Positions 4,051-12,702 of a stretch of 41,600 nt of DNA are shown piece after piece. Numbering within the stretch: position 1 is the stretch's first letter; each line of letters opens with the position of its first letter. Below the pieces are notes generated by a model. That model ran no database searches, was not told the DNA's origin, and saw nothing but the letters and a program-made list of their open reading frames with translations. The position numbers and the translations under genes were made by a program. Source of the stretch: an uncultured Armatimonadota bacterium (GTDB lineage: Bacteria; Armatimonadota; Fimbriimonadia; Fimbriimonadales; Fimbriimonadaceae); contig CAILEM010000087.1 of assembly GCA_903833215.1 (NCBI GenBank), positions 1-41,600 on the forward strand, in the 5' to 3' direction.

Positions 4051-5004
4051 TTGGCAGTCGCCAAATCGCCCATGGGATCTGCTCCAAGTACTCTCGACCC
4101 AACCGTCAAGTCGAAAACCGCACTTTTGTCGGTTGGGTCGAACACGTTGCTGGTCGCCCTGAAGCTCGGTATCGGCATGATGATCGGTTCGGTCGCCGTC
4201 ATCTCCGAGGCCATCCACTCGGGCATCGATTTACTTGCGGCACTCATCGCCTGGCAAGCCGTTCGTGTCGCGGACACCCCGCCCGACGAAGACCATCCTT
4301 ATGGGCACGGCAAGTTCGAATCCATTTCCGGAACAGTCGAAGCGATGCTCATCTTCATCGCAGGCGGTTGGGTCATTTATGAATCTGCCTTGGGGCTCAT
4401 CCACGGGAGAACAAGTCAGCCTCCAATCTGGGGACTGGTGGTCATGGGATTCTCAGCGGTGGTGAATACCCTCGTCGCGCGCAGGCTTCACAAAGTCGCA
4501 GAGGAGCATGACTCGGTCGCTCTTCGTGCGGACGCCCATCATCTGAGCATTGATGTCTACACCTCTCTTGGTGTCTTTGTCGGGTTGGGACTCGTGGCCC
4601 TGACCGGATGGCACGCCCTCGATTCCATCGCTGCATTAGCGGTGGGCTTGCTTATTCTTTACACAGCCTACGGCATCACCAAACAGGCGATTGCTCCTCT
4701 CGTCGATGTGGCACTTCCCGCTGAAGAGATTGAGAAGATTGTGGCCGCCTTACGTTCGCACCCTCAAGTGAGAGGATGGCACAAGCTTCGGACGCGGAAA
4801 GCAGGCTCCACGCGCTTTGTCGCGTTCCACCTGCTGCTCGACGACGATCTTCGCCTTGTTGAGTCTCATGCCATCGCGCACGATGTGAAAGCCCTGATCG
4901 TTGCGTCACTTCCCGGGTGTGTCGTTGATATCCACACCGAGCCGTGCACTGAAGATCTCAAGAAGCACAGCAAAGATACCGTCGTGGTTGCCTCTCGAAA
5001 CTAA
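4051..5004 (+). CDS. Cation diffusion facilitator (CDF) family metal exporter
   Basis: This 317-aa protein exports divalent metals such as zinc, iron or manganese from the cytoplasm by proton antiport. Six membrane segments can be read. TM2 carries VAVISEAIHSGIDLL with the family HxxxD site, and TM5 begins with ADAHHLSIDVYTS, again HxxxD. DEDHPYGHGKFE between TM2 and TM3 is the conserved family loop. The C-terminal ~90 residues form the cytoplasmic dimerisation domain (VRGWHKLRTRKAG). The start is either TTG at 4051 or ATG at 4072. Neither has a good ribosome binding site, and the short leader after the TATAAT favours the later one. Metal specificity cannot be told. Confidence 0.9.
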   Translation: MAVAKSPMGSAPSTLDPTVKSKTALLSVGSNTLLVALKLGIGMMIGSVAVISEAIHSGIDLLAALIAWQAVRVADTPPDEDHPYGHGKFESISGTVEAMLIFIAGGWVIYESALGLIHGRTSQPPIWGLVVMGFSAVVNTLVARRLHKVAEEHDSVALRADAHHLSIDVYTSLGVFVGLGLVALTGWHALDSIAALAVGLLILYTAYGITKQAIAPLVDVALPAEEIEKIVAALRSHPQVRGWHKLRTRKAGSTRFVAFHLLLDDDLRLVESHAIAHDVKALIVASLPGCVVDIHTEPCTEDLKKHSKDTVVVASRN

Positions 5005-5638: not shown

Positions 5639-5887
5639 ATGACCCTAAACGTGAAAGACCCGGAAGCGCACCGTCTCGCTGAGGCTATCGCCCAGGAAAC
5701 CGGCGAAACTCTAACTAAAGCGGTGACGAAAGCGTTGCGCGAACGTTACGACCGCCTTCAACGAAACCGCACCAAGGCTTCAGAAGATGAATTGCTCGCG
5801 ATAGCGGGCCGCGCCGCCCTCCACGTCAAGCGGCCCTATATCGATCACGCAGAATTGCTTTATGACGAAATGGGCCTGCCCAAATGA
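5639..5887 (+). CDS. VapB-type antitoxin
   Basis: This 82-aa protein is of the short VapB/PSK-type antitoxin family. The N-terminal MTLNVKDPEAHRLAEAIAQE, then TGETLTKAVTKALRERYDRL, is the ribbon-helix-helix-like dimerisation and DNA-binding part. The C-terminal ~35 residues would wrap the PIN toxin. It overlaps vapC by four bases (ATGA), as is usual for coupled antitoxin-toxin translation, and probably autorepresses the operon with VapC. The module sits directly beside an IS3 remnant, in keeping with horizontal arrival. Confidence 0.9.
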   Translation: MTLNVKDPEAHRLAEAIAQETGETLTKAVTKALRERYDRLQRNRTKASEDELLAIAGRAALHVKRPYIDHAELLYDEMGLPK

Positions 5888-6273
5888 TCCTTGATACCTC
5901 GGCACTTGTCGCAATTCTGTTTGGTGAACCTGAAGTTGCCCTCTTCATCGGTCTCATCCACGAAGCTGATCGCTGCCTCATAAGTGCTGGAACCTACCTC
6001 GAGTTGTCCATCGTCATGGAGCGCCAGGCTGGGCCGGATGCCGAGCGTCAGCGAGAGATGTTTTTTCGGCGGGCCGGTATCATCGTCGAGCCCTTCACCG
6101 TGGAGCAGGCGCATCTTGCACGGCAGGCCTATCACGATTACGGCAAGGGTCGTCATCCAGCGGGCCTAAATTACGGCGACTGCTTTTCCTATGCTCTGGC
6201 GAAGTTCAGCGGGGAGCCACTTCTCTTCAAGGGAGAGGATTTCAAAAAGACCGATCTCGTCTCGGCGGTTTGA
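5884..6273 (+). CDS. vapC: VapC-type PIN-domain ribonuclease toxin
   Basis: This 129-aa PIN-domain protein is expected to cleave RNA, in this family usually tRNA or rRNA, when not bound by VapB. The acidic active site is intact: D4 in MILDTSALVAI, E40 in TYLELSIV, D99 in LNYGDCFSYALA, and the GEDFKKTDL motif (D119 and D124). Full length and complete motifs indicate a functional toxin. It is translated through an ATGA overlap with vapB. Confidence 0.92.
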   Translation: MILDTSALVAILFGEPEVALFIGLIHEADRCLISAGTYLELSIVMERQAGPDAERQREMFFRRAGIIVEPFTVEQAHLARQAYHDYGKGRHPAGLNYGDCFSYALAKFSGEPLLFKGEDFKKTDLVSAV

Positions 6274-11064: not shown

Positions 11065-11096
11065 CTAACCCACTGCCCAGGGTGGCAGTGGGTTAG
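11065..11096 (-). terminator. Perfect 13-bp stem-loop after the FAS1 gene
   Basis: CTAACCCACTGCC at 11065-11077 pairs exactly with GGCAGTGGGTTAG at 11084-11096 across a six-base loop. It lies eight bases downstream of the FAS1 stop codon and just upstream of the S9 peptidase start on the same strand. It probably ends the FAS1 transcript or insulates the next gene. There is no long U run after it. Confidence 0.7.
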
Positions 11097-11103
11097 TGAT
11101 AAC

Positions 11104-11616
11104 TTACTTAGGAAGTAGGACGGTGTCGATGACGTGAATCACGCCGTTCGTGCACACGATGTCTGTCTTGATGACCTTCGACTTGTCGACGCTCACACCG
11201 TGCTTGTTGTGAACGGTGATCGAAGCGCCGTTGAGAGTCTTCACCTTGGTGCCGTTCTTCAACTTGAGAACGTCGGCAGCGAGGAACTTGCCGGATACTG
11301 CATGGTAGGTGAGGATCGCTGTGAGTTTGGCCTTGTTCTCTGGCTTGAGAAGGGAGGCGATGATGCCGTGGTTGTGCTTTTCGAGCTTCTCGAAAGCTGC
11401 ATCGGTCGGAGCGAATACGGTGAATGGACCGGCACCCTTGAGTGCATCGACCAAGCCAGCAGCCTTAACAGCGGCGACAAGGGTCTTGAAGCTGCCAGCG
11501 GCAACAGCGGTATCAACGATGTCCTTTTCTGCATGTCGTGTTCCCGACACTGCAAATGCGGCAGGAATGGTTGCCATAGCGGCAACAGCGATCATAGTCC
11601 AACGTGTTAGTTTCAT
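11104..11616 (-). CDS. Secreted fasciclin (FAS1) domain protein
   Basis: This 170-aa protein has a signal peptide (about residues 1-22, cleaved after AAFA) and one FAS1 domain. The FAS1 hallmarks are present: [15 protein letters not shown], then [16 protein letters not shown] (H1-like box), [12 protein letters not shown], and the closing [14 protein letters not shown] (H2 box). Single-domain bacterial FAS1 proteins are secreted or surface adhesion-type proteins; no enzymatic activity is expected. GGGAG lies about 9 nt before the ATG. A near-consensus promoter lies upstream, overlapped by boxes that match the divergent CarH-like regulator, so light/B12 control is likely. Confidence 0.95.
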
Positions 11617-11647
11617 AGATTTCGTCTCCCTTAAGAATTCTTAAAGT

Positions 11648-11684
11648 TAGACAAAGTATAGACACGATGTCTAGGTATTGTCAA
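11648..11684. promoter_or_regulatory. Four CarH-like operator boxes over the FAS1 promoter
   Basis: TAGACA occurs on the plus strand at 11648 and 11659 (11 bp apart). On the minus strand the boxes TTGACA and TAGACA start at 11684 and 11673, again 11 bp apart. The two pairs face each other, forming the palindrome TAGACACGATGTCTA at 11659-11673. As I recall, characterised CarH proteins bind direct repeats with an 11-bp period and a TnTACA-like core. The arrangement would let the regulator block RNA polymerase in the dark. Confidence 0.65.
11655..11684 (-). promoter_or_regulatory. Sigma-70-type promoter of the FAS1 gene
   Basis: On the minus strand TTGACA (11684-11679) and TATACT (11660-11655) are separated by 18 bp, putting the start of transcription near 11648 and giving a leader of about 30 nt. 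The leader contains the perfect palindrome TTAAGAATTCTTAA at 11631-11644. Both promoter hexamers coincide with or touch the TAGACA-type boxes. Confidence 0.75.
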
Positions 11685-11743
11685 GAAATCAGGAAGAAGT
11701 GCCGTAAAGTGTGATATCTCTAAGAAAGGAACTCCCTTCATTC

Positions 11744-11760
11744 TAGACAGAACCTAGACA
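11744..11760 (+). promoter_or_regulatory. Two further TAGACA boxes in front of the CarH-like gene
   Basis: TAGACA at 11744-11749 and again at 11755-11760 keeps the same 11-bp spacing and ends four bases before the GTG start of the regulator gene, which suggests autorepression. I could not place a convincing -10/-35 pair for this gene. Confidence 0.6.
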
Positions 11761-11763
11761 TCT

Positions 11764-12702
11764 GTGACAAGATTAGAGACCTTGAGCCCGACGTATACGA
11801 TTGGAACACTGTCTTCGCTCACCGGCCTCTCTCAGCACACTATCCGAGCTTGGGAGCGCCGATATAGCGCGCTGTCTCCCAATCGGTCGGAGACCAATCG
11901 CCGTCTGTACGTTGAAGAGGATGTCACACGCCTTAAGCTGATCAAAAAAGTCGTTGAATCTGGACACAGCATTGGACAAGTGGCGCAGTTGCCCGTGGAC
12001 CAACTACTTGGGCTTGGTGGTGGAGAACAACCCATCCCAACATTCGCTGCCCACGAATTCCCTGTCGTTGATGCTTCGAGAGCATTGAGCGAAGCCCTTT
12101 CTGCGGTGCACCGACTTGATCCGGAACGCCTGGAAGCGACTCTGGCTCGTGCGCACGCATCTATGGGAATTCTGGGTTTGCTCCGAGAGGTGGTCATTCC
12201 CCTGCTCGGAGAGGTTGGCGCAGGTTGGGTGGATGGGACGGTGAGTATTGCTCAAGAACACACCGCCACGGCAGTGTTGCGAGGGTATTTGGATGTTGTC
12301 CGCAAGTCGCTTCAATCCTCACCGACCGCACCGCGTTTAATGGTGACGACTCCCCAAAACCAGTTTCACGAAATTGGTGCCCAAATGGTTGCCATCATGG
12401 GCGCGGCCCAAGGCTGGGCCGTTACCTATCTGGGACCGAATATGCCCGCCCTAGAAATTGCCGCCGCGGCGAGACAGCGGTCCGCGCGGGCAGTGGGATT
12501 GAGTCTGGTATTCCCACTCAACGATGAGGCACTTCCCGGCGAGTTGCGGCTCCTTCGAGAAAACCTGGATCCTTCCGTACATATCCTTGTCGGTGGCCAA
12601 GCCACAACACGTTATGCCGACGTGTTGTCAGAGATTGGAGCCTTGGTCAGTCATGACCTATGGACGCTGAGGGACCACTTGGCTCAGATCGTAGCTGCAT
12701 AA
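11764..12702 (+). CDS. carH: CarH/LitR-type B12-dependent MerR regulator (photoreceptor)
   Basis: This 312-aa regulator has an N-terminal MerR winged helix (YTIGTLSSLTGLSQHTIRAW, then RRYSALSPNR, residues about 11-80). A helical bundle (about 105-180) and a C-terminal cobalamin-binding Rossmann domain (about 188-310) follow. The CarH light-sensing signature W-x9-E-H is exact: W155 and E165-H166 in GWVDGTVSIAQEH. H202 in NQFHEIGAQM is the predicted lower axial cobalt ligand, although the usual D/E-x-H-x-x-G motif is Q-x-H-x-x-G here. In the dark such proteins bind adenosylcobalamin, form tetramers and repress; light breaks the Co-C bond and releases DNA. The start is GTG at 11764, with TTG at 11782 as an alternative. 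It is divergent from the FAS1 gene and convergent with the acyl-CoA ligase gene. Confidence 0.9.
   Translation: MTRLETLSPTYTIGTLSSLTGLSQHTIRAWERRYSALSPNRSETNRRLYVEEDVTRLKLIKKVVESGHSIGQVAQLPVDQLLGLGGGEQPIPTFAAHEFPVVDASRALSEALSAVHRLDPERLEATLARAHASMGILGLLREVVIPLLGEVGAGWVDGTVSIAQEHTATAVLRGYLDVVRKSLQSSPTAPRLMVTTPQNQFHEIGAQMVAIMGAAQGWAVTYLGPNMPALEIAAAARQRSARAVGLSLVFPLNDEALPGELRLLRENLDPSVHILVGGQATTRYADVLSEIGALVSHDLWTLRDHLAQIVAA

Follow-up and report, generated by a model that had tools for sequence, protein, structure and literature searches.

Features of the locus

A CarH/LitR-type regulator gene and a divergent gene for a secreted FAS1 (fasciclin) protein lie side by side in a 41.6-kb stretch of DNA from an uncultured Armatimonadota bacterium (contig CAILEM010000087.1 of assembly GCA_903833215.1, positions 1 to 41,600; the window). 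The region between them contains six T(A/T)GACA boxes arranged in three pairs, and the spacing within each pair is exactly 11 bp. Regulation of carotenoids is the role usually ascribed to CarH. The features of the locus are as follows.

11065..11096, minus strand: perfect 13-bp hairpin, lying between FAS1 and the S9 peptidase gene downstream of it (folding energy −29.2 kcal/mol, z −5.1)
11104..11616, minus strand: secreted single-domain FAS1 (fasciclin) protein, 170 amino acids, with an N-terminal hydrophobic signal-like segment (Pfam)
11625..11630, minus strand: Shine-Dalgarno-like GGGAGA before the FAS1 ATG (direct sequence reading)
11648..11664, plus strand: operator pair TAGACA-N5-TAGACA (boxes at 11648 and 11659), overlapping the FAS1 −10 and opposite in orientation to the other FAS1-side pair
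11655..11684, minus strand: FAS1 promoter TTGACA-N18-TATACT (11/12 consensus match, better than any other in the region)
11668..11684, minus strand: operator pair TTGACA-N5-TAGACA (TTGACA at 11684, TAGACA at 11673), with TTGACA as the FAS1 −35 hexamer
11744..11760, plus strand: operator pair TAGACA-N5-TAGACA (boxes at 11744 and 11755), at the carH promoter
11782..12702, plus strand: CarH/LitR-type regulator with a MerR DNA-binding domain, a four-helix B12 cap, and a B12 Rossmann domain (Pfam, model, and motifs)

The pattern TWGACA-N5-TWGACA matches the window three times, always in this intergenic region, and was absent from 100 dinucleotide shuffles of the window. Three of the five matches in the whole 6.2-Mb genome are the ones at this locus. 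All four FAS1-side boxes overlap the FAS1 promoter, and the carH-side pair, followed by a weak −10 (CAAGAT, 11768 to 11773), is a probable site of carH autoregulation. The probable start of the regulator is TTG 11782, not GTG 11764, the first-listed start of the open reading frame, because the sequence M-S-P-T-Y-T-I-G matches the starts of close relatives (M-x-x-x-Y-T-I-G); this would place the last two boxes 22 to 38 bp before the start. The preliminary description of this DNA had reported six TAGACA-like boxes paired at exactly 11 bp, four of them on the FAS1 promoter and two just before the regulator, and these claims are confirmed, with the start moved to TTG 11782. Tandem 11-bp repeats overlapping a promoter −35 are the operator design of the CarH/LitR family, and the window operators have it. 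The A of the published consensus nAnnTnnACAn (PMC8156234) is present in 3/6 boxes. The FAS1-side operator consists of two facing pairs, where many relatives have a tandem triple, so its occupancy may differ from theirs.

A wider regulon in the window genome was considered and rejected: outside the locus there are only two strict pairs, both single and candidate sites at most. One (C72:807) lies inside a gene. The other (C125:73921) is a single TTGACA-N5-TTGACA between kdpD-like and phosphoesterase genes and is either a second CarH site or chance. The hairpin downstream of FAS1 has no T run, and the terminator scan found no terminator there; it may separate the FAS1 and S9 peptidase transcripts. 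Elsewhere in the window (5639 to 6273), two small overlapping open reading frames resemble, from their translations alone, a VapB-type antitoxin and a PIN-domain toxin.

Regulator

The regulator matches MerR, B12-binding_2, and B12-binding above the Pfam gathering scores. Its structural model (pLDDT 90.9) is closest to full-length Thermus thermophilus CarH (TtCarH, 5c8d; Z 23.9, 34% identity). Retention of W-x9-E-H and of a predicted axial His, as first described, holds: in the 306-amino-acid form these are W149, E159, H160, and H196. Against the motif ExHx2Gx41SxV/Tx22-27GG, residues H196, G199, S241, V243, and G271-G272 are correctly spaced (G-x41-S-x-V-x27-GG), and the first E is Gln, as is usual in members from this phylum, including the CarH of a crt operon in genome G104. 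The NCBIfam CarH score (NF052513) is 140.8 bits, below the cutoff of 400; the protein is therefore designated CarH type and not an NCBI equivalog. At the position of His132 in TtCarH the protein has Val; this His is absent at 32/33 CarH loci of the phylum and kept at only one. The window genome encodes an ATP:corrinoid adenosyltransferase, and PF01923 is found in 21/21 genomes tested; judged by this gene content, adenosylcobalamin can be made in all of them.

Conservation and operators in Armatimonadota

A search of 291 Armatimonadota genomes found CarH homologues in 30 genomes, at 33 loci. The genomes are mostly MAGs, and the counts given here are of loci, which share ancestry and are therefore not independent evolutionary events. 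FAS1 adjoins carH divergently at 23/33 loci, in families f1, f3, f5, f11, f12, f23, and f27. Conservation of the gene pair and of the 11-bp boxes in relatives had been set beforehand as a check on the initial reading, and both are kept across these seven families. In a FAS1 tree, carH-linked genes cluster beyond chance (8 changes versus 17 when shuffled) without forming one clade; the tree is poorly resolved.

The ten loci without a divergent FAS1 are G032, G104a, G012, G157, G104b, G060b, G161, G145, G146, and G147. The contig ends beside carH in G032, an SRPBCC gene neighbors carH in G157, and G104a is an operon of carH, polyprenyl synthetase, phytoene synthase, and desaturase. In G012 (L031, contig C27), carH is divergent from a TspO/MBR gene, and the carH-side operator is kept. 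TspO, which is light induced in Mycobacterium kansasii, recurs near carH-FAS1 at further loci. The CarH-like MerR-B12 genes of G145, G146, and G147 (L138, L140, and L139) have Arg in place of H142 and show neither a FAS1 neighbor nor 11-bp boxes; these possibly form a B12-independent (CarA-like) branch.

Operators were scored as T..ACA pairs in the 260 bp upstream of each of the 33 carH genes (8,745 bp). At 11-bp spacing there are 57 pairs; the other spacings between 6 and 21 yield 0 to 2 each. Elsewhere in these loci, 483,823 bp contain 6 pairs at 11 bp. Chance as the source of the boxes is ruled out by this spacing specificity together with the shuffles. At least one pair is found at 27/33 loci, those without including all three H142R loci. 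In aligned operators at most loci, a box usually forms the −35, with a −10 17 to 18 bp farther on, on both the FAS1 and carH sides. As a positive control, the scan recovers the T. thermophilus carH operator, TGTACAAAAGCTTGACAAAACCTATACA, before carH. Myxobacteria use operators in which two repeats are accompanied by degenerate ones (PMC9304148).

Operator pairs accompany 21/23 carH-linked FAS1 genes versus 0/22 unlinked ones (Fisher p 7e-11); the linked loci in G033 and G160 have no pair near carH under the T..ACA rule. A genome-wide search for triple operators gave 14 matches in 26 CarH-bearing genomes, 12 of them at carH loci, and in 17 CarH-less genomes a single match, which is a simple repeat. 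In G161, where carH has no FAS1 neighbor, a triple operator lies 82 bp upstream of an unlinked FAS1 gene on another contig. In G160, the gene behind a triple operator encodes a member of a secreted protein family; genes of this family cluster with FAS1 and neighbor carH or FAS1 at 8 other loci. Members of this family, at L193 (G160:C131), L032, L035, L036, L038, and L137, are about 170 to 210 amino acids long and have no Pfam match. An operator pair of 11-bp spacing also lies upstream of folE2 (GTP cyclohydrolase) in G060 (L156, C62:29613), a likely further CarH target. At L157 (G104:C42, about 4170 to 5000), the translated repeats VHPHACGEY and TPTPVGN resemble a CRISPR array and surround an 11-bp pair that is due to chance.

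The conserved gene pair, operators on both sides, the 11-bp register, and an operator that follows an unlinked FAS1 gene support the CarH-type control of FAS1 that had been predicted from the window. Local autoregulation as the only function of the boxes is rejected in view of the 22 unlinked FAS1 genes without pairs and of the operator at the unlinked FAS1 gene in G161.

Carotenoid genes

The window genome (G000) has phytoene synthase on contig C18 and photolyase domains on C98 and C60, and no operator pairs were found in the fetched regions around these loci. None were found either in the examined phytoene synthase regions of G019, G012, and G004. In G104, carH heads crt genes, and an operator is present there. 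Nine CarH-FAS1 genomes that are 92 to 99% complete (G003, G049, G061, G050, G072, G060, G033, G187, and G074) lack PF00494 and with it any phytoene synthase, which suggests that this branch of CarH acts on FAS1 without carotenogenesis. The examined crt and photolyase loci of the window genome have no boxes either, and together these results point to FAS1 as a primary, noncarotenoid target. FAS1 is the main dedicated target predicted for CarH in the window genome, and this branch of CarH in Armatimonadota probably had FAS1 as its founding target.

FAS1 protein and its neighbors

The FAS1 protein matches Fasciclin (PF02469) with an E value of 1.2e-35. By sequence, its closest solved bacterial structure is Rhodobacter sphaeroides Fdp (1w7d), 55% identical. 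Its model has a moderate pLDDT of 69.8, and the fold also matches the AstaP structures 8c18 and 22iy (Z 16.5 to 17.2).

An FAD oxidoreductase gene follows FAS1 in G187 and G188, and in G187 genes for DUF1365, CFA synthase, an AhpC-like protein, and DUF1295 also lie behind FAS1. At 10 loci, a DUF378 gene separates carH from FAS1. Genes for SRPBCC, TspO, and an SDR-DUF2867 protein recur as neighbors of carH-FAS1 loci. In R. sphaeroides, the FAS1 gene RSP_1409, folE2, and RSP_1087-1091 are induced by photo-oxidative stress (PMC7074977). A fasciclin of Azospirillum is reported to be under RpoE-ChrR and flocculation to depend on it, as cited in PMC10949492. In M. kansasii, mpt83 and mpt70 rise in light (PMC9861118), and a Synechocystis FAS1 is upregulated in high light and binds no carotenoid (PMC10147662). 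A plasmid of Polymorphobacter (L187, NZ_CP080242.1) carries FAS1 beside genes for a bacteriorhodopsin-like protein and a Brp/Blh carotene dioxygenase, another light-related FAS1 context.

The neighbors and operator-bearing genes (FAD oxidoreductase-DUF1365-CFA, FolE2, TspO, SRPBCC, and AhpC-like) point to a photo-oxidative stress regulon. The common denominator of these FAS1 contexts is photo-oxidative stress, of which adhesion may be a part, one not indicated by the neighbors. The preliminary description had proposed light-dependent adhesion or biofilm formation as the output, and this proposal was not supported as worded: the neighbors and operator-bearing genes are stress-like, and FAS1 proteins are already known to be induced by light or singlet oxygen under other regulators. 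We consider it unlikely that the system is a switch for light-controlled adhesion or biofilm formation with the FAS1 protein as its adhesin. FAS1 domains have a known role as adhesion modules, the closest solved bacterial match is Fdp, and there is the fasciclin-dependent flocculation reported in Azospirillum; however, adhesion is not demonstrated by the domain alone, and the conserved partners are stress, lipid modification, and redox genes and not matrix or appendage genes.

Comparison with known systems

The window regulator resembles TtCarH in domain order, fold, the Wx9EH motif, the axial His, and tandem 11-bp TnnACA repeats overlapping the −35. TtCarH, however, lies beside carotenoid and photolyase genes, and the window regulator lies beside FAS1, with Val for His132 and facing pairs in place of a tandem triple on the FAS1 side. 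The CtMerR protein of Chloracidobacterium thermophilum (8JBS) is likewise a B12 photoreceptor without the His132 ligand; it has Arg at this site and still goes from tetramer to monomer in light (PMC11796333). CtMerR is a distant relative (23% over the B12 part) and is described in that source with an alternative DNA-binding site. The RpoE-ChrR and RpoHII photo-oxidative stress regulons of Rhodobacter and Azospirillum likewise involve FAS1: in Rhodobacter, FAS1 (RSP_1409), folE2, and the RSP_1087-1091 lipid genes are photo-oxidative stress genes, and the Azospirillum fasciclin is under RpoE-ChrR. The regulator there is a sigma/anti-sigma pair, whereas here it is of the B12 photoreceptor type.

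In the plasmid collection, Eleftheria terrae, a betaproteobacterium (L185, NZ_CP106953.1), also has a CarH-type MerR gene with Wx9EH divergent from FAS1. Unlike in the window, the intergenic region there has no 11-bp repeats and instead contains two TTTGTCC-N-GGACAAA palindromes, which makes it an independent pairing of the two genes under a different operator design; this is a single case and a lead only. A plasmid-borne relative of the Eleftheria regulator in Azoarcus (61%) is divergent from FAD oxidoreductase-DUF1365-CFA. In the open literature, we found no paper linking CarH or LitR with fasciclin; subscription LitR work could mention one.

Proposed mechanism and alternatives

The material for an explanation consists of the boxes, their register, their overlap with the promoters, their conservation, their association in trans with FAS1, and their absence from the examined crt and photolyase genes. 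As a whole, it is best explained by a CarH-type switch that represses both promoters in the dark and releases them in light, with FAS1 serving in photo-oxidative stress, and we regard this explanation as quite probable. In the dark, the adenosylcobalamin-bound regulator would oligomerize on the tandem 11-bp T-n-G-A-C-A repeats. These form the −35 regions of the two divergent promoters, and both carH and FAS1 would be shut off. Light would break the cobalt-carbon bond, the oligomer would fall apart, and carH and FAS1 would be transcribed together. The FAS1 protein would then act in the envelope, most likely in the response to photo-oxidative (singlet-oxygen) stress, by analogy with related alphaproteobacterial FAS1 proteins controlled by RpoE-ChrR; one way in which it protects may be cell-cell adhesion or flocculation. 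We infer repression, the dependence on B12 and on light, and the role of FAS1 from the features of the DNA and the predicted proteins.

Alternatively, the regulator could control FAS1 as a sensor of adenosylcobalamin and not of light and, without His132, repress whenever adenosylcobalamin is present. In favor of such a sensor, this residue is missing from the window protein and at nearly all loci of the phylum, and TtCarH without it (H132A) stays mostly tetrameric after light (PMC10442372). CtMerR, however, monomerizes in light with Arg at the same site, and the neighbor and target genes, including the crt operon in G104, are genes of light and photo-oxidative stress; we judge the sensor reading quite improbable. 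It is very doubtful that FAS1 resembles algal AstaP in binding carotenoids and giving photoprotection when induced by light: this would fit the usual carotenoid theme of CarH, the presence of phytoene synthase in the window genome, and the match to 8c18 and 22iy, which is one of fold only, but the nine CarH-FAS1 genomes without PF00494 hence have no known carotenoid route, and the light-induced cyanobacterial homologue binds no carotenoids. That FAS1 is a bystander and the boxes are there for carH autoregulation alone or for another regulator is scarcely credible, since separate FAS1-side operators overlap the FAS1 promoter, an operator precedes the unlinked FAS1 in G161, and FAS1 genes unlinked to carH otherwise have no boxes, even though the carH-side pair is kept at some loci without FAS1 (G012, G060b, and G104a).

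A broader history can be suggested tentatively, at somewhat less than even confidence. CarH of Armatimonadota may be primarily a noncarotenoid regulator: a B12-light switch would have taken over a FAS1-centered response to photo-oxidative stress, which elsewhere is the task of RpoE-ChrR, would be released photochemically without a need for His132, and would serve cells lacking carotenoids.

The CarH-FAS1 pair and its DNA switch recur throughout the phylum, often in species without a recognizable carotenoid synthase, so these receptors evidently serve more than carotenoid production. CarH-type proteins without His132 form a natural set that would be useful for studying light release without bis-His ligation and as optogenetic parts. 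The CarH-FAS1 module, found also in genomes without phytoene synthase, would be a second well-defined output of CarH, and the poorly understood FAS1 proteins of bacteria would gain a candidate regulator and a condition, light, under which they can be tested.
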